Source: an uncultured Armatimonadota bacterium (GTDB lineage Bacteria; Armatimonadota; Fimbriimonadia; Fimbriimonadales; Fimbriimonadaceae). From it: a stretch of 64,000 nucleotides of DNA. Below are positions 1,791 through 63,120 of this stretch, piece after piece (the stretch's first letter is position 1; each line of letters starts with the position of its first letter). Under the pieces are notes generated by a model. That model was not told where the DNA came from and ran no database searches. It worked only from the letters and a program-made list of their open reading frames with translations. The DNA lies in contig CAIYLG010000021.1 of NCBI GenBank assembly GCA_903927025.1, positions 1 through 64,000 on the forward strand, given 5' to 3'. Made by a program: the position numbers and the translations under genes.

Positions 1791-4631
1791 ATGTCTTACA
1801 AAATGCGCTTTGCGCCCATATTTGCTTTGTTATCTTTATCGGTTACAGTGTTGTGCCAACAAGCGGGAGCTCCTTGGCCAAAGCTGCGACAAAACGTTCT
1901 CAACACCGGTGTCGGTGTTGCCGGCGGTGTCAATGGCGCCCAGAAGTGGGTGTATCCAGCAGGCACCTACAACACCCTCGCGCCAGCGGTGATTGCGGCG
2001 GACGGCACCATCTACTTCGGTGCTGCTTCGAACCTCCTCGCGCTAAAGCCAGACGGGACTCTCAAGTGGAGCTTCTCGACTGGCTCGCAAATTTACAACG
2101 CACCCGGAATTGGAGCGGATGGAACGATCTACTTCGGATCAGATGATTTCAAAATCTACGCCGTTAACCCCGATGGCACCAAGAAGTGGAGCTACCCAAC
2201 CGGGAATTTGATCTCAAGTGCGCCTTCCTTTGCTACCGACGGAACTATCTACATCGGCTCCGCAGACAACTACCTGTACGCACTAAATACAGACGGAACT
2301 CTGAAATGGAAGTTCTTCGCGCAGAGCAGCGTGAGTTCCTCTCCCGCGGTTGGAAAGGACGGAACGATCTTCGTGGGAAATGGCTACGGTTCGATGTTTG
2401 CCATCAACCCTGACGGGACCCAGAAGTGGAGCTTTGACACTGGCTCTACCGCTGGGATCGTCTCTGCTCCCGCAATTTCGCCGAACGGAACTATCTACTT
2501 TGGGAGTTGGAGCCACAGTCTCTACGCCTTAAATGCAGACGGAACTCTTCAGTGGAGCTTTCCGACCGGAGGCCTGATTTGGACATCTCCTGCAATCGCC
2601 GTCGACGGAACGATCTACATCGGTTCAGACGACCACAATCTCTACGCGGTCAACCCCGACGGATCTCAGAAGTGGAAGTTCGCCGCAGGCAGAGCAATTG
2701 AAGCCTCTCCCGCGATCGGTTCAGATGGAACGATTTACTTTGGCTCTATGGACTGGAACGTATACGCACTGAATCCCGATGGAACTCAGCAATGGAGTTT
2801 CCCGACAGGCGGATTCGCAAACTATGACCCGGCGATAGGCAGCGATGGCACGATCTACGTCGGCTCTGGAGATTTTAAGTTCTACGCCATCGGTTCCAAG
2901 GTCTCAACTGTTCCCGTTCTCAGCGTTAGCCTCAAGCCCACGTCTGTAGTTGGGGGAGGAACCTCTAAGGCAACCGTGACCTTGGTGCAGGCCGCTCCCG
3001 CCGGTGGCGACTTGATTACTATGCAGAGTTCAAGTACGGCAGCTGCACCACCGGCATCGATGACCATTCCAGCCGGTCAGACGACAGCTCAGTTCACGAT
3101 CAGCACATCAACGGTAGAGGTGAACACGCCAGCGACAATTACCGTCACTTCCGGCCCTAGCTCTCAATCAGCGATTCTCACGGTTGAGGCACCGAGTGAG
3201 CTTTCTGGCCTTTCATTGTCGCCAAGCTCAGTGGTTGGAGGCAACTCTACCACCGGAACGGTTTCGATTAAAGCCGCAGCGCCGACAGGAGGCATCACGG
3301 TAACGCTAAATACAAGCGGGCCCAACGTCTCCGCACAATCATCGATCACCGTTCCAGAAGGAGCCACCAGTGCAACCTTCACGGCAACGACCCTTGGAGT
3401 GACAACCCAGGCGAACGAGTCCATCACGGCAAGCCTCAACAACGCGGCCAAGACCGCAACGCTTACCCTTCTTCCTGCTGGACTAGCCACATTTACCATC
3501 AGCCCGAATTCGGTCGTGGGAGGGGTTTCGGCGGTGGGTACCGTCGGGCTAAACGGCTCCGCACCAACTGCGGGAGTGGTCGTATCAATTGCTTCAAACA
3601 ACGTCAGCACGACGGCCCCGGGATCTGTAACCATTCCCGCAGGATCCACGTCTGCCCAGTTCCAGATAAAGACGACGGTCGTTATCGCGAACGCCACAGT
3701 GGTTCTGACCGCCACGCAGGGGACGTCAACGCTTAAGCAGAACTTGGTTGTCCAAACTCCGCAGCTGGTCGGAATATCGGTCGGCCCTACACAGACAATT
3801 GGGGGATCCATCACTGCCGTGACAGGCACTGTCAGCATTAGCGGTGCCGCGCCGAGTGGAGGAGAAACCATCAAGCTCACAAGTTCCAGCCCTGCAACCG
3901 TAAAAGTTCCCGCATACGTCAAGGTGCTCAGCGGAGCTACATCCGTTGCCTTCCCGGTAGTCCACAAATTGGTTGCTGCTTCAAAGTCGTTCTCGATAAC
4001 GGCAGCACTCGGGTCTCAGACGTCAGCCACGACTCTCGAACTTGACCCGTTCCAAATCGCTGCAATATCAGCGTCTCCGAACCTAGTCACTGGCGGACAA
4101 CCCACAATTGGTACGGTCACGCTGAATGCGACGCCTAGTTCCGCCAGCGGAGCCATCACGGTCAAACTTACTTCCAGTTCGGTTGCGGCTGGTGTACCTG
4201 CAACTGTTTCCGTCTCGACCGGTACTGCCAAAAAGACATTCACAGTCACAACAAAGGCTGTTTCGGCTTCTATGACTGCATCGATAGTCGGAAAGGTCGG
4301 TACATCGAGTCAGGCGACTGGAATCACGATCCAACAGCCGTTCCTCAGCGGCATTTCGGTTAAGCCGGGCACCGTAAAGGGATCTGCTGCAACGGCCGTT
4401 ACCGGCACACTGACTTTGTCAGGCATTGCACCCACCGGTGGACTGACTGTCACACTGACCAGCACTGCTGGATCCGTGGCAGGGGCACCCACATCGGTCA
4501 AGGTTCTAGCTGGAAAGAGCAACGCAACGTTCAAGGTGACGCACTTCAAAGTCCAATCGCAGGTGGTTGTTACGTTGACCGCCAATTTAGCAGGGGTGGT
4601 GAAGACGACCACCCTTACGGTGACTCCGTAA
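1791..4631 (+). CDS. secreted PQQ-like beta-propeller protein with six Ig-like repeats
   Basis: Start: ATG with AAGGA six bases upstream, followed by a signal peptide ending near LCQQAG (about residue 22). Residues 40-370 consist of about eight to ten repeats of the type DGTIYFGSDDFKIYAVNPDG, each ending in a Trp-containing strand (KWSY/QWSF), as in PQQ-binding propellers. These are structural repeats: no dehydrogenase active site is visible, so an enzymatic role is not claimed. Residues 375-946 hold six Ig-like beta-sandwich repeats of about 90 residues, each opening with a motif like LSPSSVVGG and containing a VPASVTIPAG-type strand. No C-terminal sorting signal or anchor is seen. The same module recurs in five other proteins of the window. 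A surface or extracellular binding role is inferred. Confidence 0.85.
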   Translation: MSYKMRFAPIFALLSLSVTVLCQQAGAPWPKLRQNVLNTGVGVAGGVNGAQKWVYPAGTYNTLAPAVIAADGTIYFGAASNLLALKPDGTLKWSFSTGSQIYNAPGIGADGTIYFGSDDFKIYAVNPDGTKKWSYPTGNLISSAPSFATDGTIYIGSADNYLYALNTDGTLKWKFFAQSSVSSSPAVGKDGTIFVGNGYGSMFAINPDGTQKWSFDTGSTAGIVSAPAISPNGTIYFGSWSHSLYALNADGTLQWSFPTGGLIWTSPAIAVDGTIYIGSDDHNLYAVNPDGSQKWKFAAGRAIEASPAIGSDGTIYFGSMDWNVYALNPDGTQQWSFPTGGFANYDPAIGSDGTIYVGSGDFKFYAIGSKVSTVPVLSVSLKPTSVVGGGTSKATVTLVQAAPAGGDLITMQSSSTAAAPPASMTIPAGQTTAQFTISTSTVEVNTPATITVTSGPSSQSAILTVEAPSELSGLSLSPSSVVGGNSTTGTVSIKAAAPTGGITVTLNTSGPNVSAQSSITVPEGATSATFTATTLGVTTQANESITASLNNAAKTATLTLLPAGLATFTISPNSVVGGVSAVGTVGLNGSAPTAGVVVSIASNNVSTTAPGSVTIPAGSTSAQFQIKTTVVIANATVVLTATQGTSTLKQNLVVQTPQLVGISVGPTQTIGGSITAVTGTVSISGAAPSGGETIKLTSSSPATVKVPAYVKVLSGATSVAFPVVHKLVAASKSFSITAALGSQTSATTLELDPFQIAAISASPNLVTGGQPTIGTVTLNATPSSASGAITVKLTSSSVAAGVPATVSVSTGTAKKTFTVTTKAVSASMTASIVGKVGTSSQATGITIQQPFLSGISVKPGTVKGSAATAVTGTLTLSGIAPTGGLTVTLTSTAGSVAGAPTSVKVLAGKSNATFKVTHFKVQSQVVVTLTANLAGVVKTTTLTVTP

Positions 4632-33216: not shown

Positions 33217-33909
33217 CTACGGCGTAATCGTCAGAATCGCCGACTTGTGGCTGTGACCGATCGCGGCGGTGAACTTGACCGCTGTAGTCTTGGGGACCGA
33301 GTTTGCGATCAGTGAAAAATTCACGGAAGTCGAACCGGCAGGAATCGTGACTGAGTTCTTGGCACTGGTTCCAGCGGTGTCGGAGGTGAGCTGGACAACG
33401 ACTCCGGCAGCACCAGCCGGCGCGTTGATCGTAATCGTTCCCACCGAAGGTTGAAATCCAGTGAAGATGGAACCGCCCTTAATTGTCGAAGGATTAAATG
33501 AGAAGTCCTTCACTTCGAAAGGTCGAACTTCGAGCTCTTCACAGCGGTGCTTGGTGCCAAGCGTAGCCGTGATCTTGATCTCGCTCTCTTTGGATACCTG
33601 CAAAGTTGAAATCGCAAAGTCAGCGGACTTGGCTCCAGCCGCAATCGTCACAGATGAAGGAACAGTCACAACGGTGGTATCCGAGCTGCCTAGGGTGATC
33701 GTAACCCCTCCTGTCGGGGCTGCATCTTCTAGCTTGACCGTGCCAGTCACCGCCGTGGGCGACCCGCCAACAACGGCATGAGGAGCAATCTTGACCTCAT
33801 CCAGTTCAGGTCCGTGAGATTTCGCCGCGGCAAAAGCTCCTTGGGCAAGAAGGCTACAGGCAGCCAATACAGCGAGGCAAACAAATTTTGGGCGCAATCG
33901 AATCATCAT
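33217..33909 (-). CDS. small secreted protein with two Ig-like repeats
   Basis: I use the second of several in-frame starts (MMIRLRPKF at 33909) because AAGGTG sits just upstream and a signal peptide (CLAVLAACSLLAQGAFA) follows. The 230-residue product holds two Ig-like modules of the same type as in the giant proteins of this window: HAVVGGSPTAVTGTVKL ... VPSSVTIAAG and NPSTIKGGSIF ... KNSVTIPAG. It ends at the last beta strand (ILTITP). No extra domain is present, so it may represent the minimal form of the module. Function unknown. Confidence 0.8.
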   Translation of the reverse strand: MMIRLRPKFVCLAVLAACSLLAQGAFAAAKSHGPELDEVKIAPHAVVGGSPTAVTGTVKLEDAAPTGGVTITLGSSDTTVVTVPSSVTIAAGAKSADFAISTLQVSKESEIKITATLGTKHRCEELEVRPFEVKDFSFNPSTIKGGSIFTGFQPSVGTITINAPAGAAGVVVQLTSDTAGTSAKNSVTIPAGSTSVNFSLIANSVPKTTAVKFTAAIGHSHKSAILTITP

Positions 33910-34078
33910 TTTCACCTTATCTGGCGATATCTCAACCATGATTGATGATCCAGAGACCCTTGGGAAGGGTTTTGATACATTCCGTAAAAGATAACGACCT
34001 TAGTCCCAAAACAATTCGCACATCATAATTCGATCGACGATCTAATCAAATTCAACTTGAGCATGTAATATTACGTGC

Positions 34079-36190: not shown

Positions 36191-39100
36191 GTGCCCAAGA
36201 ACTACCCCGCAATTGTCCGCCCCATTGCTGTAACCACAATAGGGTTCCTCGCACTATTCCCTGGAGCCGCATACGCTCAGAGCCTCTTGCCTCTAAACTG
36301 GCTCTACGGAGCGATTCGGACACCTCGCTGCGTTTCGTATTCTACAGACGGATCACTAGCGGCTGTCGGTGGGGTCGGGGGAGTTCAGGTTTACAACGTG
36401 CAGACAGGGGCAATGGCATTCCCTATCTCCACCACCGAGGCAACCGTTTATGCGGCCGCATTCACTCCAGACAAGAAGCAGCTCCTGATCGCGGGGACTC
36501 AAAAGGGGATCTTTCAGGTCGTTTGTGAGAGGTGGAACCTGGCGACGAACACACTGGTCGACAGTTTCAATTTGGGAATCGCGCAGAATACCAATCCATC
36601 AGTCTGGTATTCCCCAGACACCACCCAACTTCTGATCGGCGGAATGGCTCAGAACCCATTCCTGCAGACATGGAGCACCACTTCTGACAAGCTTCTCCAG
36701 TCGATGACTCCGACGATTACGGTTACTGGGGTTGCATGGTCCTGGGATGCAAGCTTGGCGGCTGCTTACGGGCCGCAGTATAACTCCGGCGCGGGGACAT
36801 ACAAAGCGGTGGCCCAGATATGGAACGCCAATACTGGGGCGCAATCAGAAGTTTTGAGCACACCCAGCACACAGACTGGCATGCTAAGCGCCGCATTCAG
36901 CAAGGATGGAAAATCATTCGTTGGAGTCGTTCAGACAGCTGTCGCAAACTCCATCGGAACAAACGTGCTTGACGTTTGGACATTGGGTACCGGCCAAATC
37001 TCCAAGACCCTTTCATGCACCCCCAACAAGCAGTCCATGGGGATTCAGTTCACCACGGATGGGACGAAGCTGATCGACTACGGTCAATTCTACGATTCAG
37101 GGATGTCGGCAACCTATGGTGAAACCGACGTTTGGAACTTCCCCGCCCTGACGTCTGCTGGCACGTTCTCCAGCTCGAACGTGCCTCGCTGCTCGACGGT
37201 GTCGCCAGATTCCAATGTTCTGGCGACCTTGAGCACCGGAGGGCCATTCCCGAACCTTGACAATGCATACCTTCAGCAATGGAACCTGGCAGCACAAACT
37301 CTGACCAGCACAATCAGCCTCGGTGCCTTCGAATATCCTGCGTCAACCGGCTTTGGCTACAACAGCCTCTCCTTTTCTCCGGATGGGGGAACGCTGGCGT
37401 TCGGTGGATATTCCGTCGATTCTGTATTGAGTAAGCACGGAGGCACGATCGGCCTCTGGAATGTGAACTCTGGTCACTTCAACAAGGCCCTCACAACATC
37501 GGCGACGGGAGGCGTGGCGGCGACAGCATTTTCGCCGGATGGCTCCGCCCTTGCGGCTGGAGGCACCACTGACCCCAGCGGCACCGCCATGGGAGTGGCC
37601 GAGATCTGGAATCCGATCTCAGGAGCGCTGGTGTCATCCCTTGCGACTGCAGCCCTAAGTGTCAACTCCATCTCCTACTCTCCGGCAGGATCCCAATTGG
37701 CAGTGGCCGGACAGAGACTAAACCCTTGGAACAACCAACTCGGAGGAATCCTCGAAGTTTGGAATCCCTCAACAGCGAGCCTGACAATTTCCGCACCCAC
37801 GGCGACCAACACAATCGGTTCGATCGCTTACTCTCCGGATGGCTCGATTCTGGCGAGCTGTGGCGAATCCGGCGCCGCCGCCGCCCCCACCGGAATTATC
37901 GAATTGTGGAACCCTACGACTGGATTGTTGATCACAACCCTCAACAGTGCGGCAAACGTTGCGTTGACCACCATCGCATTTTCACCCGATGGCACGACTC
38001 TAGCGGTGGGCGGTTCGATCCAGGGCACCCAAGGCTCTTCAGTTGCCATTGTCGAGGTTTGGAATGTTTCATCCCACAAGAAGCTGGCGACGATGCCCAT
38101 CCCGACAGGCCCCACCGTGGCCAATTCCGTAGCGTATTCCAAAGACGGATCCGAAATCTTTGCGGCAACGGATTGCGGTCTCGAAGTGTTCAGCTCCGCT
38201 AACAGCGCTCTGCTGAGCACCCACGCAGTGGTCGGCAGCACGGTGTCGGTCTCTGGCCAATCCAGCATTGGGGCCTTTAGCCTTTCCCCAACCGGAAGCG
38301 TTTTCGCCCTCAACGCGGGCGGAACCGCTCCCTATGAGTGGGTCGCCATTTCGCAGAATCCTTACTTCACCATCCCGGTTTTGTCGCTAATTTTGAATCC
38401 GACCGTCGTCCAGGGAGGCACCGTTAGCACGGCAACGTTAACTCTCACCCTCCCGGCTCCCGCAGGCGGTCAAAACGTTCCGGTCACGTCAAGCTCCACT
38501 TCCGCCTCGGTTCCGGGGAGCGTCTTCATTCCTGCCGGCTCCACTACAGCAACTTTCAATGTCACGACTTCGGCCGTCAACTCCCAAACTACAGCAAACC
38601 TATCGGCGGGAACTGGGCTAGGCGCGAAGTCCACCAACCTATCGATCAACCCAGCCAAACTTAGCGCGCTGTCGGTAGCTCCATCGCTCGTTATTGGCGG
38701 CAGCACAGCAACGGGCACGGTAACCCTGTCTGGTCCTGCAGGGCCCGGGGGCACAACTGTCAGTATTTTCACAAGCAGTTCGGCAGCAGCCGTGTACGGG
38801 ACTGCTGTTGTGCCGGCGAACCAGACCTCCACGACATTTACAATCACGACGACAGGGGTTACCCAGCAGTCGGATGTAACCATCACCGCGATGTTGGGCG
38901 GTCAACAGATGACGGCAACGATCACGGTGGCGCCGGCAAACATCACGACGCTGACAGTGAGTCCGATCTCCGTCTCCGGTGGGAACGTCGCTCTTGGAAC
39001 AATCAGTTTGAATGGAGTCGCTCCATCGGGCGGAATCTTCTGCCAGCTGACCAGTTCGAACAGCGTCGCAACGGTCCCGCAGGGAGTCAGTGTTCCACAG

Positions 39101-40060
39101 GGAGCTTCGTCGGCTAAGTTCCAGATCGCGACTTCTACCGTGACCGCCGCCAAGTCCGTGGTGATCACGGCCACTTACGGCACCACGTCCAAGACGGCAT
39201 CGCTTACGATTGGGCTGACCACAGTAAGCGCCATCACCTTCAGCCCCGCTTCGGTGGCAGGTGGCACCAATTCCACTGGGACCGTCACGCTAACAGGCCC
39301 CACGCCGAAAGGTGGTGCGATCGTCAAGCTAATCAGCGCCAGCACATCCGTGCAAGTTCCCGCCAGCGTTACCATCGCCGCGGGCGGCACGTCCGCATCT
39401 TTCACCGCCAAGACCACCTCCGTTTCCGCAACGAAGGGAGTGTCAGTAAGCGGAACCTTAAACGGCACCTCTCAAAGCGGAACTCTAAACCTGCTTCCGC
39501 CCGCGCTGACTTCTGTGACGATTAAGCCATCCACTGCGGTCGGGGGAATCGGGGCGACGGGGACGGTGACCCTAAGCGGACCTGCTCCAGCTTCCACAAA
39601 GATTGCTCTCTCAAGTTCTTCCTCCAGCGTGTCTGTGCCTGCGACCGTAACCTTTGCAAGTGGGAAATCGAGTGCGACGTTCGCGATCAAAACCGTTGCG
39701 GTCGCAAATGACAAGAGCGTTTCGCTCACAGCAAGCTTCAATGGAGGCAATCAGTCAGCCGTACTTACGGTCACTGCCCCGACGATTAAGACAATCACTC
39801 TGAGTCCGGCGACGGTTAAAGGCGGAAAATCCAGCACAGTTACGGTCACGCTTTCCTCCGCCGCGCCAAGCGGCGGCCTGACGATTGCTGTCTCCAGCAG
39901 TTCGTCAAGCGCAACGACAGCCACTTCCCTGGTCATAGCGGCCGGAAAAACAAGCGGCACATTCACGATCAAGACAACGGCAGTGACTGCAAAGACAGTC
40001 GCCACGCTCTCTGTAACCTTGAATTCTCATGTCAAGAGTGCACAGCTCACGATTAACTAG
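36191..40060 (+). CDS. giant secreted WD40-like propeller protein with six Ig-like repeats
   Basis: The GTG start has AGGAAG seven bases upstream, and a signal peptide ends at AAYAQS (about residue 30). Residues 35-720 are built from WD40-like repeats of the type SIAYSPDGSILASCGE...GIIELWNPTTG, probably two propellers. Residues 730-1289 contain six Ig-like modules (LNPTVVQGG, VAPSLVIGG, VSPISVSGG, FSPASVAGG, IKPSTAVGG, LSPATVKGG). It ends at the final beta strand, with no sorting signal or anchor. Same architecture as the proteins at 56340-59780 and 59932-63120. A surface or matrix role in binding is inferred; no enzyme motif is seen. Confidence 0.88.
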   Translation: MPKNYPAIVRPIAVTTIGFLALFPGAAYAQSLLPLNWLYGAIRTPRCVSYSTDGSLAAVGGVGGVQVYNVQTGAMAFPISTTEATVYAAAFTPDKKQLLIAGTQKGIFQVVCERWNLATNTLVDSFNLGIAQNTNPSVWYSPDTTQLLIGGMAQNPFLQTWSTTSDKLLQSMTPTITVTGVAWSWDASLAAAYGPQYNSGAGTYKAVAQIWNANTGAQSEVLSTPSTQTGMLSAAFSKDGKSFVGVVQTAVANSIGTNVLDVWTLGTGQISKTLSCTPNKQSMGIQFTTDGTKLIDYGQFYDSGMSATYGETDVWNFPALTSAGTFSSSNVPRCSTVSPDSNVLATLSTGGPFPNLDNAYLQQWNLAAQTLTSTISLGAFEYPASTGFGYNSLSFSPDGGTLAFGGYSVDSVLSKHGGTIGLWNVNSGHFNKALTTSATGGVAATAFSPDGSALAAGGTTDPSGTAMGVAEIWNPISGALVSSLATAALSVNSISYSPAGSQLAVAGQRLNPWNNQLGGILEVWNPSTASLTISAPTATNTIGSIAYSPDGSILASCGESGAAAAPTGIIELWNPTTGLLITTLNSAANVALTTIAFSPDGTTLAVGGSIQGTQGSSVAIVEVWNVSSHKKLATMPIPTGPTVANSVAYSKDGSEIFAATDCGLEVFSSANSALLSTHAVVGSTVSVSGQSSIGAFSLSPTGSVFALNAGGTAPYEWVAISQNPYFTIPVLSLILNPTVVQGGTVSTATLTLTLPAPAGGQNVPVTSSSTSASVPGSVFIPAGSTTATFNVTTSAVNSQTTANLSAGTGLGAKSTNLSINPAKLSALSVAPSLVIGGSTATGTVTLSGPAGPGGTTVSIFTSSSAAAVYGTAVVPANQTSTTFTITTTGVTQQSDVTITAMLGGQQMTATITVAPANITTLTVSPISVSGGNVALGTISLNGVAPSGGIFCQLTSSNSVATVPQGVSVPQGASSAKFQIATSTVTAAKSVVITATYGTTSKTASLTIGLTTVSAITFSPASVAGGTNSTGTVTLTGPTPKGGAIVKLISASTSVQVPASVTIAAGGTSASFTAKTTSVSATKGVSVSGTLNGTSQSGTLNLLPPALTSVTIKPSTAVGGIGATGTVTLSGPAPASTKIALSSSSSSVSVPATVTFASGKSSATFAIKTVAVANDKSVSLTASFNGGNQSAVLTVTAPTIKTITLSPATVKGGKSSTVTVTLSSAAPSGGLTIAVSSSSSSATTATSLVIAAGKTSGTFTIKTTAVTAKTVATLSVTLNSHVKSAQLTIN

Positions 40061-40063
40061 GCT

Positions 40064-41191
40064 TCAAGGCTTGATATAGCCGTCGGTCAATGTCTGCATA
40101 AAGCTCACCAGGTCTGCGCTTTCTTGGTCAGTTAGCTTCAGGTTGCCGACTGTACTCGTCTCCATGTTTGCCGAGACTTCTGGAGGGCCGAAGGCGCCTG
40201 AATCTCGTGTGTTGTAGAACCGAACAACGTCCGCCAGGTTTAAAAAGAGACCATTGTGGAAATAGGGCCCGGTCACAGCAATGTTCCGCAGGGTCGGGGT
40301 TTTGAATTTGCCCGTGTCAGTGAGCCGACCCGTGGTCGTTTGAAGGCCAATATCAATGAAGCTGGCTCCCAACGGGTTGAACTTTGCGGGAAGCGAATAG
40401 TAGGGGTTCAGAGGATTCTTTGGCAGTCCAAGGTTACTGTACGTAAAGTCGGTAAAGAGGGGCGGCGTACCATCGGGAGCAGTTGTACTCGGATGGCACG
40501 AGAAGCAGAGTCCCTTTCCGTTGAAGATGGCCAAGCCGGACTGCTCTCCAGCCGTGAGGGTGGCCGTGCCCGCAAGGTAGGCATCGTACTTGGAGGAAAA
40601 GGGAGAAACGGCGGGCGTTTTCTCGAACTCGGCAATCGCGTCTGCTATCGCACTGTAGGCGGTGGGAACGTCGTGGAAAATTGTCGCACCATAAAACTTT
40701 CTTAGGGCACCCGCAAACGGACCCTTCTCAACCGCCGCCACAACGGACGCTGCACTCGGATTCGCCATTTCAATCGGGTTCAACAGCGGGAGCTTCGCCT
40801 GAGCCGCCAAATCTGCCGCCCGTCCATCCCAAAACTGTCCTCCGATCGCTCCGGTGCCGGCGAGCTGCTGGAAAACTGGCGTATAAGCGGCATAGGCGGC
40901 GGTGGGTGCGTTCCGAAAGCCAAAGAGGCCCTTTACGACGCCCTGCGATGTTGGAAAGCCAGGTCGCGGGTCGGTAAATCCTTGATTGGGGGAGTGGCAT
41001 GTTGCACATGACATTCCTGTTGGAGCAGAAAGACTCTTGTCAAAAAAGAGGGCTTTGCCAAGGGCTGCCTTGGACTGCAGAGTTGGTTGGGCGACGCTTA
41101 CCCCAGACCCTCCGCATCCCCACAGACCGAGGCCAAAGATGGCTGCTGAGGTGACCCCGAGAACGATTGAAGGAGACTGACGTGATTCCAT
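40064..41191 (-). CDS. di-heme cytochrome c peroxidase (CcpA/MauG family) lipoprotein
   Basis: The 375-residue protein has a lipoprotein-type signal (GLGLWGC, lipid Cys26). It also has two heme c motifs, CATCH at 62-66 and CFSCH at 229-233, in the arrangement of bacterial di-heme peroxidases: GKALFFDKSLS before the first, RNAPTAAYAAYTPVF and FWDGRAADL between, and FKTPTLRNIAVTGPYFHNG after. The last segment carries the usual Met/His ligand region. The reaction expected is H2O2 reduction, or a MauG-like oxidation, at the outer face of the membrane. It lies 9 bases downstream of a cupredoxin-bearing gene, a natural electron donor. Confidence 0.92.
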   Translation of the reverse strand: MESRQSPSIVLGVTSAAIFGLGLWGCGGSGVSVAQPTLQSKAALGKALFFDKSLSAPTGMSCATCHSPNQGFTDPRPGFPTSQGVVKGLFGFRNAPTAAYAAYTPVFQQLAGTGAIGGQFWDGRAADLAAQAKLPLLNPIEMANPSAASVVAAVEKGPFAGALRKFYGATIFHDVPTAYSAIADAIAEFEKTPAVSPFSSKYDAYLAGTATLTAGEQSGLAIFNGKGLCFSCHPSTTAPDGTPPLFTDFTYSNLGLPKNPLNPYYSLPAKFNPLGASFIDIGLQTTTGRLTDTGKFKTPTLRNIAVTGPYFHNGLFLNLADVVRFYNTRDSGAFGPPEVSANMETSTVGNLKLTDQESADLVSFMQTLTDGYIKP

Positions 41192-41200
41192 TCTTAACTG

Positions 41201-42739
41201 CTACTTAACAACGACGGCACCAACCATTCCCTGGCCGAGTTGAGACCCGTTGCCTCCAAATCCATGATAAACACAGTGATAGTAGTAGACCGCTCCAGAC
41301 TTTGCCGATGCCGGAACGATCCAGCAAAATGACTGTCCAACCCCGATCACTCCTGAGTTGATCCCCTGAGAAAGTACGTCCGAAGTGACGGTATGGGTCA
41401 TCGAAGACGGGTTCGTCCACGTAATCACGGAACCGGCTGGAACCGAAATTGTGGTGGGCAGGAATTGGTGGCCATCCGTCGCTTGGACCACATAGGTGGT
41501 CTGCTTGGGGCTCACCTGAAGCGTGCCGGTTGAGGAGTAGCCGTTCTTGTCCACGGCAGTTACGGTTGCCGATGAAGTCGCCGCGACGGTGCCAGCCGTG
41601 AGGCTGACTTGGGCGGAGCTTGTACCAGCCGGAACCGTCACCGTCATCGGTACAGACAGGAAGATCTGCATCGTCGAAAGCGTGACTGCCATCCCACCCG
41701 ATGGAGCCGGACCGGAAAGCTGAATGTAACAGGTTGCCTGGCTGCCACTCGGTATCGCGCTTGGACCAATCGTGATTCCGGTGAGAAAGGATGCTGGCGG
41801 ATTTACGGTGACCGATGCGGAGCCGCTGTAGCCAGCCGTGTCCTCGGCGGTAAGCGTCTCTGGAACAGATGTCCGGACCGACTGGGCTACACCGGTGAAG
41901 GTCCCGGTTTTGGCACCCTGCTTGATGGTGATTGAGGTCGGGAGCGTCAGCGAACTCGGCTGTGCCGAAAGATTAACGGTGAACCCGCCTTTGAGTGCTG
42001 GCTCGGATAAGGTCACGGTTCCGGTCACGGAGCCTGAAGCGACAACGCTAGAAGGTGTCACCGTCAGCTTCGTGACTCGAACCGGCGGCAGCTCCACGGT
42101 GAGAGGCTCGGTAACCGTATAGCCGTTGGCGTCAGTCGCTGTGATGGAATCAGCAGTTGTCGCAGTCACTTTGGATGTCTTGACCAAAAACGTAGCATTC
42201 GAGGCACCTGCAGGCAAAAACAGAACCACAGGAACGGAGGCAATTGCCAACTTGCTGGATAGGTTCACGGAAAAGCCGCCAGAGGGCGCAACTTCTGTTA
42301 GCTTAACTGTCCCCGTGGTCGCACCACCGGCCTGCACCAGGGCAGGTTTGAGAGTCAGCTTCGACAATCGGATCGTAGGAGGCTCTATCGTGAGGGCAAC
42401 TTCAACAAGGTGTCCGGCCGGGTCTCGAGCCTCGATTTCAACTCGTTCCGCCACGGCGACGTGTTCAGTCGTCACCACGAACGTGACATTCGTCGCTCCA
42501 GCGGCGAGCGTCAAGGAGGCCGGAACCACCGCGAACTTGGGTGCGGATGACATAAGCGTCACTTTGAAGCCGGCTGAGGGCGCTGGCTTTGAAAGCGTGA
42601 CCACGCCGGTCGCTGAGCTATTGCCGCTGACTGGGTTAGGCGTCACAAGAACTTTTGAAACGCTCTGAGCCATCGCCGCGGCAGGAAGCAACACCAAGGT
42701 AGTAACTGATGGAAGCAGAATTCGGGTCAAAAAGCGCAT
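41201..42739 (-). CDS. secreted Ig-repeat protein with a C-terminal cupredoxin (blue copper) domain
   Basis: A signal peptide (MRFLTRILLPSVTTLVLLPAAAMA) is followed by four Ig-like repeats (residues 27 to about 410; for example LTPSSVVASGSVTG-type openings). The last 100 residues form a plastocyanin-like domain: HQFLPTTISVPAGSVITWTN, ligand His449 in MTHTV, then YYYHCVYHG with Cys489 and His492, and Met505 in GQGMVG. This His-Cys-His-Met set is the complete type 1 copper site. It is the first gene of an operon with the di-heme peroxidase, so it probably passes electrons to it. The Ig repeats may hold it in the cell envelope. Confidence 0.9.
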   Translation of the reverse strand: MRFLTRILLPSVTTLVLLPAAAMAQSVSKVLVTPNPVSGNSSATGVVTLSKPAPSAGFKVTLMSSAPKFAVVPASLTLAAGATNVTFVVTTEHVAVAERVEIEARDPAGHLVEVALTIEPPTIRLSKLTLKPALVQAGGATTGTVKLTEVAPSGGFSVNLSSKLAIASVPVVLFLPAGASNATFLVKTSKVTATTADSITATDANGYTVTEPLTVELPPVRVTKLTVTPSSVVASGSVTGTVTLSEPALKGGFTVNLSAQPSSLTLPTSITIKQGAKTGTFTGVAQSVRTSVPETLTAEDTAGYSGSASVTVNPPASFLTGITIGPSAIPSGSQATCYIQLSGPAPSGGMAVTLSTMQIFLSVPMTVTVPAGTSSAQVSLTAGTVAATSSATVTAVDKNGYSSTGTLQVSPKQTTYVVQATDGHQFLPTTISVPAGSVITWTNPSSMTHTVTSDVLSQGINSGVIGVGQSFCWIVPASAKSGAVYYYHCVYHGFGGNGSQLGQGMVGAVVVK

Positions 42740-56339: not shown

Positions 56340-59300
56340 TCAGTGGACGGTGACGGATCCCGATACAGTGGTTCCATTTGCCGAACCGGACACGGAAACC
56401 GTCTTGGATGCAGTGACTTTGGAGGTCTTTACCGTGAAAGCGACACTCGTTCTTCCAGCAGGAATCATCGCGCTTGCCGGAACCAATACGGTAGAAGAAC
56501 TGCTGGAAAGCACAACCTTGAAACCGCCTACGGGAGCAATAGAGCCTAATGTCACTGTCCCGGTCGCAGACAGACCACCTTTGACGGTAGCTGGATTCAC
56601 CGCGAGCGACTTGAGTACCGGTGGGTTAATGGTCAACACTGAACTCTTCGAGACCCCATTCAAGGTGGAGGTGATGGTCACCGTCGTCACCTTGCCAACC
56701 GCCAGCACGTGAATGGCAAACGTCCCAGTCGTCTTGCCGGATGGGATTATGGCTGTGGCGGGCACCGTTGCCGATGCTGAATTGCTGACAACCTTGATCG
56801 CAAGCCCTCCAACGGGTGCAGGCGAACTGATCGACAGCGTTCCCGTTGCGGACGACCCTCCCAGCAGGGAGGACGGGCTGATCGAGAGCGTCGCAAGATC
56901 TGGTGGGGTGACAATGAGGTCTGCCGTCTTCACCGTCGCTCCAGTAATCGCTTTGACCTGCACTACCTTGTTGCTTGGGACGGCCTTAGTGATGATATTG
57001 AAGGCCGCCTGGCTCGCACCAGCCGGAATGACTACCGTATGGGGAACGATCACCGCAGCCGAGTTGGACAGGATGATGACCGACTCACCCGAATGCCCCG
57101 CAAGCCCGGTCAGGGTGACCGTGCCAGTAGTGTTCGTGCCTCCAAGGACGCTAGCTGGGTCGACAGTCACAGAATCCACCGTGGCAGGGAGAACGGTAAT
57201 CGCCACGATCTTAGACAAAGCACCTTGGCCAACGGTGAGCTTAACGACCTTGCTTGCAGACACCGCCCCAGCCGTAAGCACAAGCGTTGTGGAGGACTTC
57301 GCACCGCCGATCAAAACGGTGCTCGGCGCGCTAATTACGGCGTCCGAAGAGGCCAGCGCAAGTGAAATGCCCGAGGGACCCGCAAGTCCGGTCAGCGTGA
57401 CCGTCAGCTTGAACGTGCCGCCTCCAACCACAGACGTCGGAGTTGCCGCCGCAGATTGCAGCGATGCAGGGCCAACATTGAGACTCGCAGACACCGTGTT
57501 GCTCCCGTCACCGGCGGATATGGTTGCCACAGTATTGCTGTCAACACCGGAGGTCTGCACGGAAAAAGTTGCGGACGTTGAGCCAGCAGGGACGGTGACG
57601 GTCGCCGGGACGAGAGCGGAAGCATTTGAAGCCGACAGGTTCACCACCGAACCACCCACTGGCGCCGATTGAGCCAGCGTAACTGTTGCCACCACTGAAC
57701 TGCCTCCAATGACAGACTTCGGCGAAACGGAAATACTGCTCACCGGCACGAAGCCTGCGAGCGGATTGTCCGCTAGAACAAGACCGCCAACTGCCGTCCC
57801 AAAAACCAACGTGTTCCCCACCGGTGGCACAAAGATGGACAATTGGTTATTGGTGAATGTCTCCAACAGAGAAGCGCTTGAGATCGCAAACGCTTGCAGA
57901 TTCGCGCCGGTCGAAAAAAGCAGCACGCGGCCCGAAGCGGTGAAGGCTAGGCCCACCACACTATAAGTGTTGGCAGCCAGAGGAAGGTTCTCCAGAAGTT
58001 TTCCTGTTGAAGCAAGCCATACTTCGCAGGTTCCCGCGAGCTCTCCAGCTCCTCCAACTGCCAAATTCTTCCCGTCGGGCGAATAGGCCAATGTGGACAC
58101 TTGAACTGCCGTTGTGGCGATGTTTTGTGCCAGCTTCTTCGTGGCAACATTCCAAACTTCGACGACGCCAGCGGAACCAGTCCAGCCACCAGCTGCCAGT
58201 TGCGTCCCATCCGGAGAAAAGGCGACGGCAAAAACTCCACCCGTGGAACTGGTGGTTAAGGATGCAAGGAGCGTGCCGGTAGACACGCTCCAAATCTCAA
58301 GAAGGCCTCCACTGGAACTTGTTCCTCCCACCGCCAAAGTCCTTCCGTCCGGCGAGAATGCGATGCTGTTCACGCCCAAGTCCGCGCCGGAAGACAGGGA
58401 CTTCGACAGTGTGTTTTTCGAAGTATTCCACAGCTCCACGACGCTTCCGTAGGTGCCTGTCAAATCCTGAGACACACCTGCATCTGCCAAAAGCGAACCA
58501 TCGGGTGAATACGCAACCGTGTTGACCGTGTAACTTGCGGCTGTCGGAAGCAGTGTCACCACCCCGGTTAGGGTGTTCCACAGTTCCAGGAGGCCGCCGA
58601 GATTGCCGGAACCGCCTGCCGCGACTGTTTTGCCATCTTTGCTCAGAGCAACGGCGGTCGCCGCGCCATAAGAGTCATCGGATGAAATCGCCTGAAGCTG
58701 GGACTGATTGGATACTGTCCAACGCTCGACCAAGCCGTAGAGCACTGAAGATGAGTTCTGAGCCTCCCCGCCATCTAGGAGGGTGCGGCCATCTGCCGAG
58801 AAGCACAGCGAGTGAATCGCCGGACCTGCCAGGCTGGGCAAACTGCCGAAAGCCATCCACCCAGAGACATTCCAAAGCTCAATCGTGCCGCCCGTGTTGC
58901 TGATCCCGCCATCAGAAAGTAGCGTCCCAGATGGATTGAAGGCAACAGAGGTGACTGTATTTGCCAAATAGGTCGGCAAAACCGACACCGATGCACCGGT
59001 GGAGACGCTTCGGACCTCCACGACGGCGGATCCATTTGCAGTTTGCCCACCGATTGCGGCGAGAGTGCCATCTGGAGAGACCGCGACCGCGAACACGCCC
59101 GCGGAGCAGTAGTTGGGAATCGTCCCCAGTCTTAATTTGCTTGATGTGCTCCAAATCTCAACCACTCCAGTGGAGTCCTTGGCGGTGCCTCCCGCGATGA
59201 TCTCAGAGGAGTCTGCGGCGAAGGCTACGCTGTTCACGCTAGCCGCGCTCGCTGTGGCGAGAAGCGCAGGGGACTTGGCGCCAAACTTCCAAATCTCCAA

Positions 59301-59780
59301 CTCACCTAACCCGAGGCTCGTTGTTCCCCCTGCGGCTACAAATTGGCCGTCCGGCGAGAAAGCCGCCGAATTCACGCCGCCAGTTGCACCGGTTGTCAGC
59401 CTGGAGATCATCGTGCCGGTCTGGGAATTCCAGATCTCAAGCACGCCTACAGAGTTCCCCGATCCATCGAGCAGAGATCCACCCACAAGAAGCTCGGAGC
59501 CGTCAGGGCTAAACGAAACAGCGCTCACACCATTTGTAGCGGCCGTACTCAAAGACAGCGTCGCCCCAGAGCCAATCGAAACCACCTGCACGGCACCCTG
59601 TCCATTCCCAGATCCCACCGCGAAATGAGTCGAATCGGGTGAGTAGGCTACTGCGCTTGGAACTGAGATGGGTGTGTAGAGTGCTTGAATCTGTTCGCTT
59701 CCCTGGGACTGCGCCTTGAGGGCACTGATCGTGAGGATAGCGAAGAGGGCAGACACGGTGATTCGAACAGCAATTGACAT
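56340..59780 (-). CDS. giant secreted WD40-like propeller protein with five Ig-like repeats
   Basis: The signal peptide ends near ALKAQS. Residues 35-690 are WD40-like repeats (SIAFSPDGRTLAVGGTSS...LLEIWSVSTGTLLASL), about 14 units. Residues 695-1146 form five Ig-like modules (VSPKSVIGG, ATPTSVVGG, VDPASVLGG, ISPSSLLGG, VNPATVKGG). It has no anchor and ends in a beta strand (VSGSVTVH). Its paralogue lies 151 bases upstream on the same strand, and both resemble the protein at 36191-40060. Long antisense frames across its Ig part are artefacts of biased codon use. Confidence 0.88.
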   Translation of the reverse strand: MSIAVRITVSALFAILTISALKAQSQGSEQIQALYTPISVPSAVAYSPDSTHFAVGSGNGQGAVQVVSIGSGATLSLSTAATNGVSAVSFSPDGSELLVGGSLLDGSGNSVGVLEIWNSQTGTMISRLTTGATGGVNSAAFSPDGQFVAAGGTTSLGLGELEIWKFGAKSPALLATASAASVNSVAFAADSSEIIAGGTAKDSTGVVEIWSTSSKLRLGTIPNYCSAGVFAVAVSPDGTLAAIGGQTANGSAVVEVRSVSTGASVSVLPTYLANTVTSVAFNPSGTLLSDGGISNTGGTIELWNVSGWMAFGSLPSLAGPAIHSLCFSADGRTLLDGGEAQNSSSVLYGLVERWTVSNQSQLQAISSDDSYGAATAVALSKDGKTVAAGGSGNLGGLLELWNTLTGVVTLLPTAASYTVNTVAYSPDGSLLADAGVSQDLTGTYGSVVELWNTSKNTLSKSLSSGADLGVNSIAFSPDGRTLAVGGTSSSGGLLEIWSVSTGTLLASLTTSSTGGVFAVAFSPDGTQLAAGGWTGSAGVVEVWNVATKKLAQNIATTAVQVSTLAYSPDGKNLAVGGAGELAGTCEVWLASTGKLLENLPLAANTYSVVGLAFTASGRVLLFSTGANLQAFAISSASLLETFTNNQLSIFVPPVGNTLVFGTAVGGLVLADNPLAGFVPVSSISVSPKSVIGGSSVVATVTLAQSAPVGGSVVNLSASNASALVPATVTVPAGSTSATFSVQTSGVDSNTVATISAGDGSNTVSASLNVGPASLQSAAATPTSVVGGGTFKLTVTLTGLAGPSGISLALASSDAVISAPSTVLIGGAKSSTTLVLTAGAVSASKVVKLTVGQGALSKIVAITVLPATVDSVTVDPASVLGGTNTTGTVTLTGLAGHSGESVIILSNSAAVIVPHTVVIPAGASQAAFNIITKAVPSNKVVQVKAITGATVKTADLIVTPPDLATLSISPSSLLGGSSATGTLSISSPAPVGGLAIKVVSNSASATVPATAIIPSGKTTGTFAIHVLAVGKVTTVTITSTLNGVSKSSVLTINPPVLKSLAVNPATVKGGLSATGTVTLGSIAPVGGFKVVLSSSSSTVLVPASAMIPAGRTSVAFTVKTSKVTASKTVSVSGSANGTTVSGSVTVH

Positions 59781-59931: not shown

Positions 59932-62900
59932 CTAGTTTACAGTTACCGTCGTCGATGCAGTTTGGGACCCAAGCGATGCCTTGATCGTTGACGTCACCTT
60001 CGCCGTTACCTTGACTGTCTTCAGCGTGAAGGTCACAAATGTCTTGTTGGCAGGTATCAAAACGGATACGGGAACGCTGGCGGCAGACTGGCTGCTGGTC
60101 AGCCCAATTTTGAGACCCCCAGCGGGTGCCGGAGAGGTCAGACTCACCGTTCCTACACTCGTTTTTCCTCCTGTCACGCTACTAGGCGAAAAGCTCAACG
60201 CACTGAGCGCGGGTGCCAACACCAAAATGCTTGCCGTCTGATTTGTGGTGCCGAAGGTTGCCGTCACCGTGGCAGTGGTCTGGCTTGGGGTCGGAACAGT
60301 TTTCACCGTAAACGCGGCGGCAGTCTTTCCTGCTGCAACCACGACGGCTGCAGGAACCACTAGATACTTGCTTCCGCTCTTCAGCTTGATCGTAATCCCG
60401 CCAACCGGAGCAGGACTTCCTATCGTCACAGATCCTGTCGTGCCAGTTCCACCGGAGACCGACACCGCATCCAGAGCAACCGACAAGAATGCCGGTGGCT
60501 GAATGGTCAGGCTCGCAGACTTTGAGGCAGTTCCCACCTTTGCCGTGATCAGGACGGCCTTAAGAAGCGCCACCGGAACCGTGGTTACCGTGAAGGTGGC
60601 TTGACCAAAATTTGCTGGCAGAGAAACGGTCTTGGGAACCACTGCGCTTACGGAGGCGCTGCTGAGGGCAACGACAATTCCTGCTGGCCCCGCTTTTCCG
60701 TTTAGGACAACCGTCCCCAGCGAAGTAGCGCCTCCAAGCACGGTCACTGGATTAAGAGTCACCGACGCGACGCTTGCCTTGGTCACAGAGAGCGCGATCG
60801 ACTTCGAGGCCGAGGAACTACCTGCCGTTATCGTTGCCGTTACGGTGGCATCAACGCCCTTTGTCGTTATCGTAAAGCTCGCAGACGAAGCTCCGCCGGG
60901 GACGTTGAGTGTCGCAGGTACCAACGCGCTTGTGGAGTTGCTGGTCAGGCTCACAAAGACGCCGCCAGCCGGTGCCGCCTGGGCGAGGGTCACGGTACCC
61001 GTTACGGTATTTCCTCCCACCACACTGGCTCCACTGAGTGAAATCTTCGTGACGGAAACTGTGGAGTAGGACGGAATGCCGGACAGGGTCAACTGGCCAT
61101 TCTCCGTGCCATAGGCAAAGAGTCCGCCAACCGCAGAACAGACCACCGAACTGACCTGGCCAACGTTATATTGCTCAAGCAAACTGTGCCCAGCGACATT
61201 GAAGGCCTGCATATTCCCGCTTGTCCCAGCGAATAGAATGCTGCTGTCTGCGGAAAACGCGACGGAAAGAATGGCCTCTTCTGCGGCTGTGTTCAAGGTG
61301 GTAATCCGCTGGCCAGTGCTCACGCTCCAGAGTTCCAGCACGCCGTCGTATTCTCCAGAGGTGTTATAACCTCCAACGGAAAGCATCTTTCCATCCGGCG
61401 AAAAGGCAAGGCACGTCACCCCATTGTTGGCACTTGTTGCCAAGGATGTAGAAAGCTGGCCGGTTGTGGTATTCCAAATTTCAACGACACCACCCTTTGC
61501 ACCGGTCCCACCTACCGCAAGCAACTTCCCATCAAGGGAATAGGCAACCGCATAGGCGCCGCCCTTTGCGGATGTCGTCAACTCAGACACAAGCGCACCG
61601 GTCTTGACGTTCCAGATTTCGAGGACACCGCTAAAGGTTGCAGTTGTATGGTTAAAGCTCAGTCCGCCGGCAGCCAAACGAGTCCCGTCAGGAGAAAAAG
61701 CAACGGACGAAATCACTTTCGTTGAAGATGTCGGAAGGGAAACGCTTAGCGTGTGAGCCGATGAGCTCCAGATCTCGATCACTCCCTTTCCTGCTGCAGC
61801 TCCACCCAGGGCGATCAGCGTTCCGTCGGGCGAGTACGCCGCAGATTGAACTCCCAAGGTCGCGGCCGATTCCAAAGATGCCACCAGTTGACCGGTAGAC
61901 GCTGACCACAAGCCAAGTAGGCCACCTAGCTTGTTCAGTCCGCCCTCAAGCACGGTCTTCGCATCTGGAGAAAACGCCACGACAGATATGCTTGTTGGAA
62001 GGCCCGTCGCAACGGATGTAATCAAGTTACTGTTCGAAAACTTCCACGTTTCGGCCTGGCCATAGAGCCCCGTACCGATTGGAACCTGGCCGCCTGCGGT
62101 CAGGAATTTTCCATCAGGGGTGAATGAAACTGGGATGACACCGCCAGAGGATGTCGTGACCAGTTTCGAAAGAAGGGCGCCGGACGCTGCGTTCCAGGTC
62201 TCCACCACGCCGTCGGTTTGGGATGCACCTCCAGCGGCCAAAGTTTTACCGTCCGGAGAAAACGATACTCCGTTCACCGAGTAGTTCGCCGCTGTATTCA
62301 GTGTTTTCAACAGGGTGCCGCTTGAGCTCCACGTTTCAAGAACCCCTGAACCTCCAGCAGAAAATCCACCTGCCGCGATGGTGGAATTGTCAGGAGAGCA
62401 TGAAACTGCGTTGACTCCCCCTGTGCTTGCTGTGTTGAATGTCTTCGACAAAGTGCCGGACGCCACTGACCAGCTTTCCAGAACACCGGCAGCAAGGCTC
62501 TCTCCGCCATCTACAAGCGTCTTCCCATCAGCGCTGAAGCTCAGGCCGAAGACCGCATAATTTGCCGCCGTATTGAGGCCAAAGGTCTTCTTGAGGGAAG
62601 CTACATTCCATAGTTCGAGAACTCCGGTCTTGGTACCGATATCTCCCTTCGATTGGCCGCCCACAGCAAGAGTCTTGCCATCCGGCGAGAAGGCAACAGC
62701 ATACACTTTGAACGTTGCCGAGGTCGCGAGGGTGCCCAGAAGCTGCTTCGTCACTGGATTCCAAAGCTCGAGCACTCCGGAACTGGTCGATGAAGACCCG
62801 CCCACTGCGAGCGTTCCACCGCCCGGGGCATAGGCCACCGAGTAAACACTGAAATTTGCCGCGGTCGGCAGGCATGCCAACGATCCCGAGGATAGGGTTC

Positions 62901-63120
62901 GCAGCTGAACTCCTCCAGCGCTTCCTCCGCCACCAACCACGAGCGTCGAACCATCTTGCGAGTAAGCAAGCGCGTTCGGCTGTGTGATCGGAGTGTTCAT
63001 CCATTGGATTGGCAGCGAAGCCTGCGCCGCCGCTCGCTCGGCTGAACCTCCGAATACCGCTACTGTGCCAAGCAGACACAGGACGGAATTCAACGAAAAT
63101 CGATTTTGGAATACGCTCAT
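59932..63120 (-). CDS. giant secreted WD40-like propeller protein with four Ig-like repeats
   Basis: The signal peptide ends near SAERAAAQAS. Residues 35-690 are WD40-like repeats (AVAFSPDGKTLAVGGQS...VLELWNVAS). Residues 695-1062 are four Ig-like modules (LSGASVVGG, LNPVTVLGG, LDAVSVSGG, FSPSSVTGG), ending at the final beta strand (STTVTVN). It is the closest relative of the 56340-59780 protein and lies directly upstream of it, which points to tandem duplication. One Ig module fewer than its neighbour shows that repeat number varies. No catalytic motif is visible. Confidence 0.88.
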   Translation of the reverse strand: MSVFQNRFSLNSVLCLLGTVAVFGGSAERAAAQASLPIQWMNTPITQPNALAYSQDGSTLVVGGGGSAGGVQLRTLSSGSLACLPTAANFSVYSVAYAPGGGTLAVGGSSSTSSGVLELWNPVTKQLLGTLATSATFKVYAVAFSPDGKTLAVGGQSKGDIGTKTGVLELWNVASLKKTFGLNTAANYAVFGLSFSADGKTLVDGGESLAAGVLESWSVASGTLSKTFNTASTGGVNAVSCSPDNSTIAAGGFSAGGSGVLETWSSSGTLLKTLNTAANYSVNGVSFSPDGKTLAAGGASQTDGVVETWNAASGALLSKLVTTSSGGVIPVSFTPDGKFLTAGGQVPIGTGLYGQAETWKFSNSNLITSVATGLPTSISVVAFSPDAKTVLEGGLNKLGGLLGLWSASTGQLVASLESAATLGVQSAAYSPDGTLIALGGAAAGKGVIEIWSSSAHTLSVSLPTSSTKVISSVAFSPDGTRLAAGGLSFNHTTATFSGVLEIWNVKTGALVSELTTSAKGGAYAVAYSLDGKLLAVGGTGAKGGVVEIWNTTTGQLSTSLATSANNGVTCLAFSPDGKMLSVGGYNTSGEYDGVLELWSVSTGQRITTLNTAAEEAILSVAFSADSSILFAGTSGNMQAFNVAGHSLLEQYNVGQVSSVVCSAVGGLFAYGTENGQLTLSGIPSYSTVSVTKISLSGASVVGGNTVTGTVTLAQAAPAGGVFVSLTSNSTSALVPATLNVPGGASSASFTITTKGVDATVTATITAGSSSASKSIALSVTKASVASVTLNPVTVLGGATSLGTVVLNGKAGPAGIVVALSSASVSAVVPKTVSLPANFGQATFTVTTVPVALLKAVLITAKVGTASKSASLTIQPPAFLSVALDAVSVSGGTGTTGSVTIGSPAPVGGITIKLKSGSKYLVVPAAVVVAAGKTAAAFTVKTVPTPSQTTATVTATFGTTNQTASILVLAPALSALSFSPSSVTGGKTSVGTVSLTSPAPAGGLKIGLTSSQSAASVPVSVLIPANKTFVTFTLKTVKVTAKVTSTIKASLGSQTASTTVTVN

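Follow-up and report, generated by a model that had tools for sequence, protein, structure and literature searches.

Type 1 copper proteins are established electron donors to di-heme peroxidases and are standard donors of BCCPs (PMC10301912). In Neisseria gonorrhoeae, the lipid-modified azurin (LAz) donates electrons to a lipid-anchored BCCP (PMC10094543). A first-pass annotation of the locus described here had taken a copper protein held in the envelope as donor to a di-heme peroxidase to be an arrangement not previously described, a view that is overturned by these two reports. As a general arrangement, a copper donor with a di-heme peroxidase is already known, and the difference in the present case is that the enzyme is of the Tyr type. 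The Tyr-ligated di-heme enzyme BthA of Burkholderia thailandensis is reported to be a very good peroxidase when an artificial donor is supplied; horse heart cytochrome c supported no activity, and ascorbate cannot semi-reduce the enzyme (PMC6405878).

The gene pair considered here is located on the minus strand of a 64,000-nucleotide stretch of contig DNA (the window) from an uncultured Armatimonadota genome of 5.25 Mb in 66 contigs whose same-genus relatives include a Fimbriimonas MAG. The two genes and the gap between them are as follows.

41201..42739, minus strand: P0001, predicted secreted protein with four Ig modules and a C-terminal cupredoxin domain, 512 residues (ORF, AlphaFold2, Foldseek)
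41192..41200, minus strand: intergenic gap of 9 bases from the P0001 stop to the P0002 start (ORF coordinates)
40064..41191, minus strand: P0002, predicted MauG-type (His/Tyr) di-heme enzyme and probable lipoprotein, 375 residues (ORF, profiles, alignment, tree)

The pair with its nine-base spacing was present just as first annotated, in reading frames running from 42739 to 41201 and from 41191 to 40064. Since the minus strand between the co-directional genes contained no terminator-like or promoter-like site, P0001 and P0002 are likely co-transcribed, and the short gap itself suggests selection for joint expression. On the downstream side, a WD40/Ig gene (36191-40060) is convergent with P0002 and ends 3 bases from its stop; the upstream neighbour of P0001, a DUF4380/mutarotase-like protein, is separated by a 230-base gap. 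At the window edge (1-321), an open frame is built of a short peptide repeat (FADSEASGACAEASRSEASAREKG).

P0001 was divided into the following parts, all read from the minus strand.

42665..42739, minus strand: predicted Sec-type signal peptide, residues 1-25, ending in PAAAMAQ, without a lipobox (sequence)
42383..42661, minus strand: Ig-like module 1, residues 27-119 (AlphaFold2 model)
42092..42367, minus strand: Ig-like module 2, residues 125-216 (AlphaFold2 model)
41801..42076, minus strand: Ig-like module 3, residues 222-313 (AlphaFold2 model)
41510..41785, minus strand: Ig-like module 4, residues 319-410 (AlphaFold2 model)
41204..41509, minus strand: predicted cupredoxin domain, residues 411-512, with a long C-x2-H-x12-M ligand loop (Pfam, alignment, AlphaFold2, Foldseek)
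41393..41395, minus strand: His449, predicted copper ligand (sequence, alignment)
41273..41275, minus strand: Cys489, predicted copper ligand (sequence, alignment)
41264..41266, minus strand: His492, predicted copper ligand (sequence, alignment)
41225..41227, minus strand: Met505, predicted copper ligand (sequence, alignment)

Against PF00127, the cupredoxin domain scored 19.5 bits (E 0.0014), slightly under the Pfam cut-off of 21.2, which is a detection threshold and no structural criterion; the orthologous Ig-cupredoxin of genus member G028 cleared the same cut-off with 22.1 bits. Because the full-length model was uninformative on this part of the protein (pLDDT about 47), the domain was modelled separately with AlphaFold2, giving a pLDDT of 80.6 and a pTM of 0.74, and the resulting model matched plastocyanins, amicyanins, and other cupredoxins in Foldseek at E values of about 1e-6. 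The His/Cys/His/Met set did not vary across an alignment that included very divergent cupredoxins. The first-pass assignment of a complete type 1 copper site to His449, Cys489, His492, and Met505 thus held exactly, and by alignment and fold model the C-terminal domain of P0001 is a type 1 copper cupredoxin with a complete predicted ligand set. In plastocyanin and amicyanin, the spacing from His to Met is shorter than the x12 loop of P0001, which is a shared trait of the small subfamily to which this cupredoxin belongs. Members of this long-loop subfamily at other loci have replaced ligands, with Gln for His in one (L017), Leu for Met in another (L176), and Asp, Asn, and Leu in place of Cys, His, and Met in two more (L177 and L178); copper binding of P0001 is therefore not to be taken for granted.

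The four Ig modules ahead of the cupredoxin were also borne out, as four beta-sandwiches modelled with a pLDDT of about 90 and matched by Foldseek to multi-Ig proteins and S-layer proteins, although none of the Pfam Ig families was reached; a PHROGs search with P0001 gave no match. With P0001 as the query, the Ig repeat had at least 63 matches in the source genome, 67 each in G026 and G028, 48 in G029, and 18 in G015, and zero to four in each of the remaining genomes of the genus. Within the window, it also occurs in secreted proteins encoded at 1791-4631, 33217-33939, 36191-40060, 56340-59780, and 59932-63120, three of the five having WD40-like propellers. The repeat is a lineage-specific expansion in the source genome, G026, G028, and G029, few or no copies being found in most genomes of the genus. 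Since the repeat is generic and present in many copies in the source genome, the Ig part of P0001 is uninformative on the pairing with P0002, and a role for the modules as a specific tether was ruled out. The proposal that they retain P0001 in the envelope is unsupported, given a plain Sec signal, no visible lipobox or anchor, and a repeat shared with dozens of unrelated proteins.

P0002 matched PF03150 (CCP_MauG) with an E value of 1e-40 and carries the following features.

41114..41116, minus strand: Cys26, probable lipidated cysteine (LWGC, atypical -2 residue) (sequence, genus orthologues)
40994..41008, minus strand: first CxxCH, residues 62-66, peroxidatic five-coordinate heme by homology (sequence, alignment)
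40493..40507, minus strand: second CxxCH, residues 229-233, six-coordinate heme by homology (sequence, alignment)
40214..40216, minus strand: Tyr326, aligning with Tyr294 of MauG, which is axial ligand to the six-coordinate heme (alignment)

In genus orthologues, the signal likewise ends with a Cys, and P0002 is probably a lipoprotein. In the alignment, classical sequences have Met at the position of Tyr326, and the equivalents of MauG Gln103, Pro107, and Glu113 are Gln131, Pro135, and Glu141; MauG Trp93 is conserved as Trp121, the Trp between the hemes. The place of MauG Trp199, a surface residue on the hole path to the MauG substrate, is occupied by Gly227. Among solved relatives, MauG was the best (E 4e-64), followed by BthA (6nx0) and 6e1c. 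The nearest NCBIfam models were those of MbnH (TIGR04039; 154 bits against a cut-off of 363) and MauG (114 bits against a cut-off of 444), and P0002 passed none of the curated subfamily cut-offs. In a phylogenetic tree, P0002 grouped with relatives from its own genus (100/100); MauG lay outside this group, and the Met-type enzymes were distant. These alignments indicated that P0002 is a MauG/BthA-type (His/Tyr) di-heme enzyme. Two narrower assignments were rejected: a classical BCCP by the Tyr at the axial place, where classical enzymes have Met; and MauG proper because it has no counterpart of Trp199 and scored low against the NCBIfam model. P0002 also stays under the MbnH cut-off (TIGR04039), and the adjacent P0001 is a cupredoxin. 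Of the lipid-anchored di-heme peroxidase that had been annotated at first, the two CxxCH motifs, the CCP_MauG domain, and the probable lipidation stand, but the electron-entry heme lacks the Met ligand of classical peroxidases, Tyr326 taking its place. The only other CCP_MauG match in the source genome lies on contig C9 (G000:C9 22943-23380, L001) and is again a Tyr-type di-heme gene, though from a different clade.

We tentatively favour an electron-transfer pair, a reading whose chance we place just short of even, in which Cu(I) of P0001 would reduce peroxide-oxidised, Tyr-type P0002. P0001 would be a secreted copper shuttle, its predicted type 1 copper domain being carried on a stalk of four generic Ig modules. 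Oxidation of the open first heme by H2O2 or another peroxide would take P0002 to a ferryl or bis-Fe(IV) state, the respiratory chain would reduce the cupredoxin to Cu(I), and two Cu(I) cupredoxin molecules would bring the enzyme back to its ferric state, the outcome being peroxide removal outside the inner membrane. Reductive activation should be unnecessary for an enzyme of the Tyr type, so that the copper protein would come into play once peroxide has reacted, unlike in classical BCCPs, where it acts beforehand. A more demanding proposal, in which P0001 is the dedicated type 1 copper donor to a Tyr/His di-heme enzyme that forms a bis-Fe(IV) state and the two constitute a peroxidase module without reductive activation, seems to us rather unlikely. 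To our knowledge, most Tyr-type (MauG/BthA-like) di-heme enzymes have no known donor; the cupredoxin gene tightly linked to P0002 offers a concrete candidate donor for such an orphan enzyme, and a dedicated donor, if true, would give the Tyr-type branch of the superfamily, so far an orphan, a named physiological donor. Dedicated donation had already been suggested in the first-pass annotation; an electron-donor role is chemically sensible and has precedent (PMC10301912, PMC10094543), but the pair is not conserved elsewhere. The two genes, their domain folds and ligand residues, the Tyr-type site, and the close co-directional spacing are observed, whereas co-transcription, loading with copper, lipidation, the flow of electrons, activity as a peroxidase, and the physiological role are inferred; P0001 and P0002 probably constitute a small electron-donor/peroxide-enzyme unit of a kind known from other bacteria.

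The conservation of the pair bears most directly on a competing explanation that we consider possible though doubtful, namely, that P0001 and P0002 are chance neighbours, brought together in the source genome only and co-transcribed by position while working separately. The cupredoxin would then be a general envelope electron carrier, and the di-heme enzyme would use another donor or target. In a survey of 113 genomes of the class, the long-loop cupredoxin or a weaker relative was found in 14 genomes and P0002 homologues were found in 23, and the two types were adjacent only in the source window. The long-loop subfamily was present in 14 of 291 Armatimonadota genomes, and a search of these from the cupredoxin side found no second genome with such a gene beside a di-heme gene. 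The gene-pair survey that had been proposed as a check on the original reading therefore went largely against it, the pair being found nowhere else in either genome set.

Across the 20 genomes of the genus, close P0002 orthologues were found in five, the cupredoxin in four, and both in two, a co-occurrence that was not significant (Fisher P = 0.25; 0.53 without the source genome) and that is consistent with chance neighbours. Each type also stands alone in relatives, in unrelated contexts: orthologous Ig-cupredoxins in G028 and G029 are both away from di-heme genes, P0002 orthologues in G019, G020, G026, and G029 all have other surroundings, and G029 carries both orthologues on different contigs, its Ig-cupredoxin in an unrelated context. 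In G028, the Ig-cupredoxin gene is placed immediately downstream of a Rieske/cytochrome b/eight-heme cytochrome cluster (L122 8206-17999), a cytochrome bc/multiheme neighbourhood of the kind expected for an electron carrier. The source genome has a Rieske/cytochrome b/eight-heme cluster of its own on contig C30 (L150), without an Ig-cupredoxin. In G029 and G026, the P0002 orthologue instead adjoins a different, shared gene, convergent with it and encoding a secreted lipoprotein-like protein of no Pfam family (L131 8675-9490 and L132 8202-9077), which is a possible partner of this enzyme clade in those two genomes and again fits chance neighbours in the source genome.

Two observations stand against chance neighbours. 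One is the 9-base gap, with the joint expression that it suggests; the other is that unrelated cupredoxin/CCP_MauG neighbourhoods appear enriched. In the flanks of 50 CCP_MauG loci, chosen solely by similarity to P0002, three PF00127 cupredoxins from two lineages were found versus 0.08 expected from the density of PF00127 genes in the same genomes, a count that is small and includes related loci. Cupredoxins are apparently commoner near CCP_MauG genes than expected by chance. The three cases were one in Fimbriimonas (L019), with the cupredoxin about 1 kb from the di-heme gene on the opposite strand, and two in Pasteurellaceae (L040 5950-10594 and L041 5890-10539), where a CCP_MauG di-heme gene, a trio of genes for an ABC transporter, and a cupredoxin gene of the plastocyanin/azurin family (PF00127) are consecutive on one strand; the di-heme proteins of the latter two have Leu or Lys at the axial position in the alignment. 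A more sensitive profile added cupredoxin-like neighbours at two loci, one in Bryobacterales (L060 5650-7631), where the gene overlaps a Tyr-type di-heme gene by 4 bases, and one in a deltaproteobacterial MAG (L091 3581-7210), where Tyr-type di-heme, porin-like, and cupredoxin-like genes overlap serially. Because the cupredoxins at all five loci belong to families other than the P0001 type, the cupredoxin/di-heme neighbourhood seems to have arisen several times.

It is improbable, in our estimation, that P0002 modifies proteins in the manner of MauG or MbnH, using peroxide-driven Trp or Tyr oxidation to mature P0001 or another envelope protein. Such a function would be in keeping with the His/Tyr type, as used by MauG, with MauG as the best solved relative, and with MbnH and MauG as the nearest NCBIfam models, both far under cut-off; MauG-family genes are also known beside those of copper enzymes, as in mtoX-SCO1-mauG (PMC5739008). 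However, Gly replaces MauG Trp199, and the source genome gave no match to the methylamine dehydrogenase small subunit (PF02975), in a search that lacked a positive control, the control genomes giving none either. Moreover, the conserved Trp of the cupredoxin occurs equally in family members without an adjacent di-heme gene, so that no pair-specific target residue was seen. Least probable, and in our view very unlikely, is that the copper protein is an acceptor or copper carrier serving an envelope enzyme elsewhere while P0002 merely shields it from peroxide. The unusual ligand loop of the subfamily and the ligands lost in some relatives would allow roles other than electron transfer, but the full His2-Cys-Met set of P0001 favours electron transfer over copper delivery.

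The favoured electron-transfer pair can be placed among the described systems as follows. BthA resembles P0002 in belonging to the CCP_MauG superfamily, in its Tyr-His six-coordinate heme, and in having no mau operon; it differs in that Ser257 takes the place of the Trp between the hemes that P0002 retains as Trp121, and in that the excerpted text of its report mentions no cupredoxin neighbour, which P0002 has (PMC6405878). MauG of Paracoccus denitrificans, the best solved relative, shares Trp93, Gln103, Pro107, Glu113, and Tyr294 with P0002 but is set apart by Trp199, a Gly in P0002, and by a separate clade in the tree. The mtoX-SCO1/senC-mauG operons likewise combine a MauG-family gene with copper-protein genes, those of a methanethiol oxidase and a chaperone rather than of a cupredoxin (PMC5739008). 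The LAz/BCCP system likewise has an envelope-held type 1 copper donor and a lipid-anchored di-heme peroxidase (PMC10094543). There, however, both proteins are lipidated, whereas P0001 has an Ig stalk and shows no lipid anchor, and the E heme of the gonococcal BCCP is ligated classically by Met280/His204, whereas P0002 has a Tyr at the Met position.
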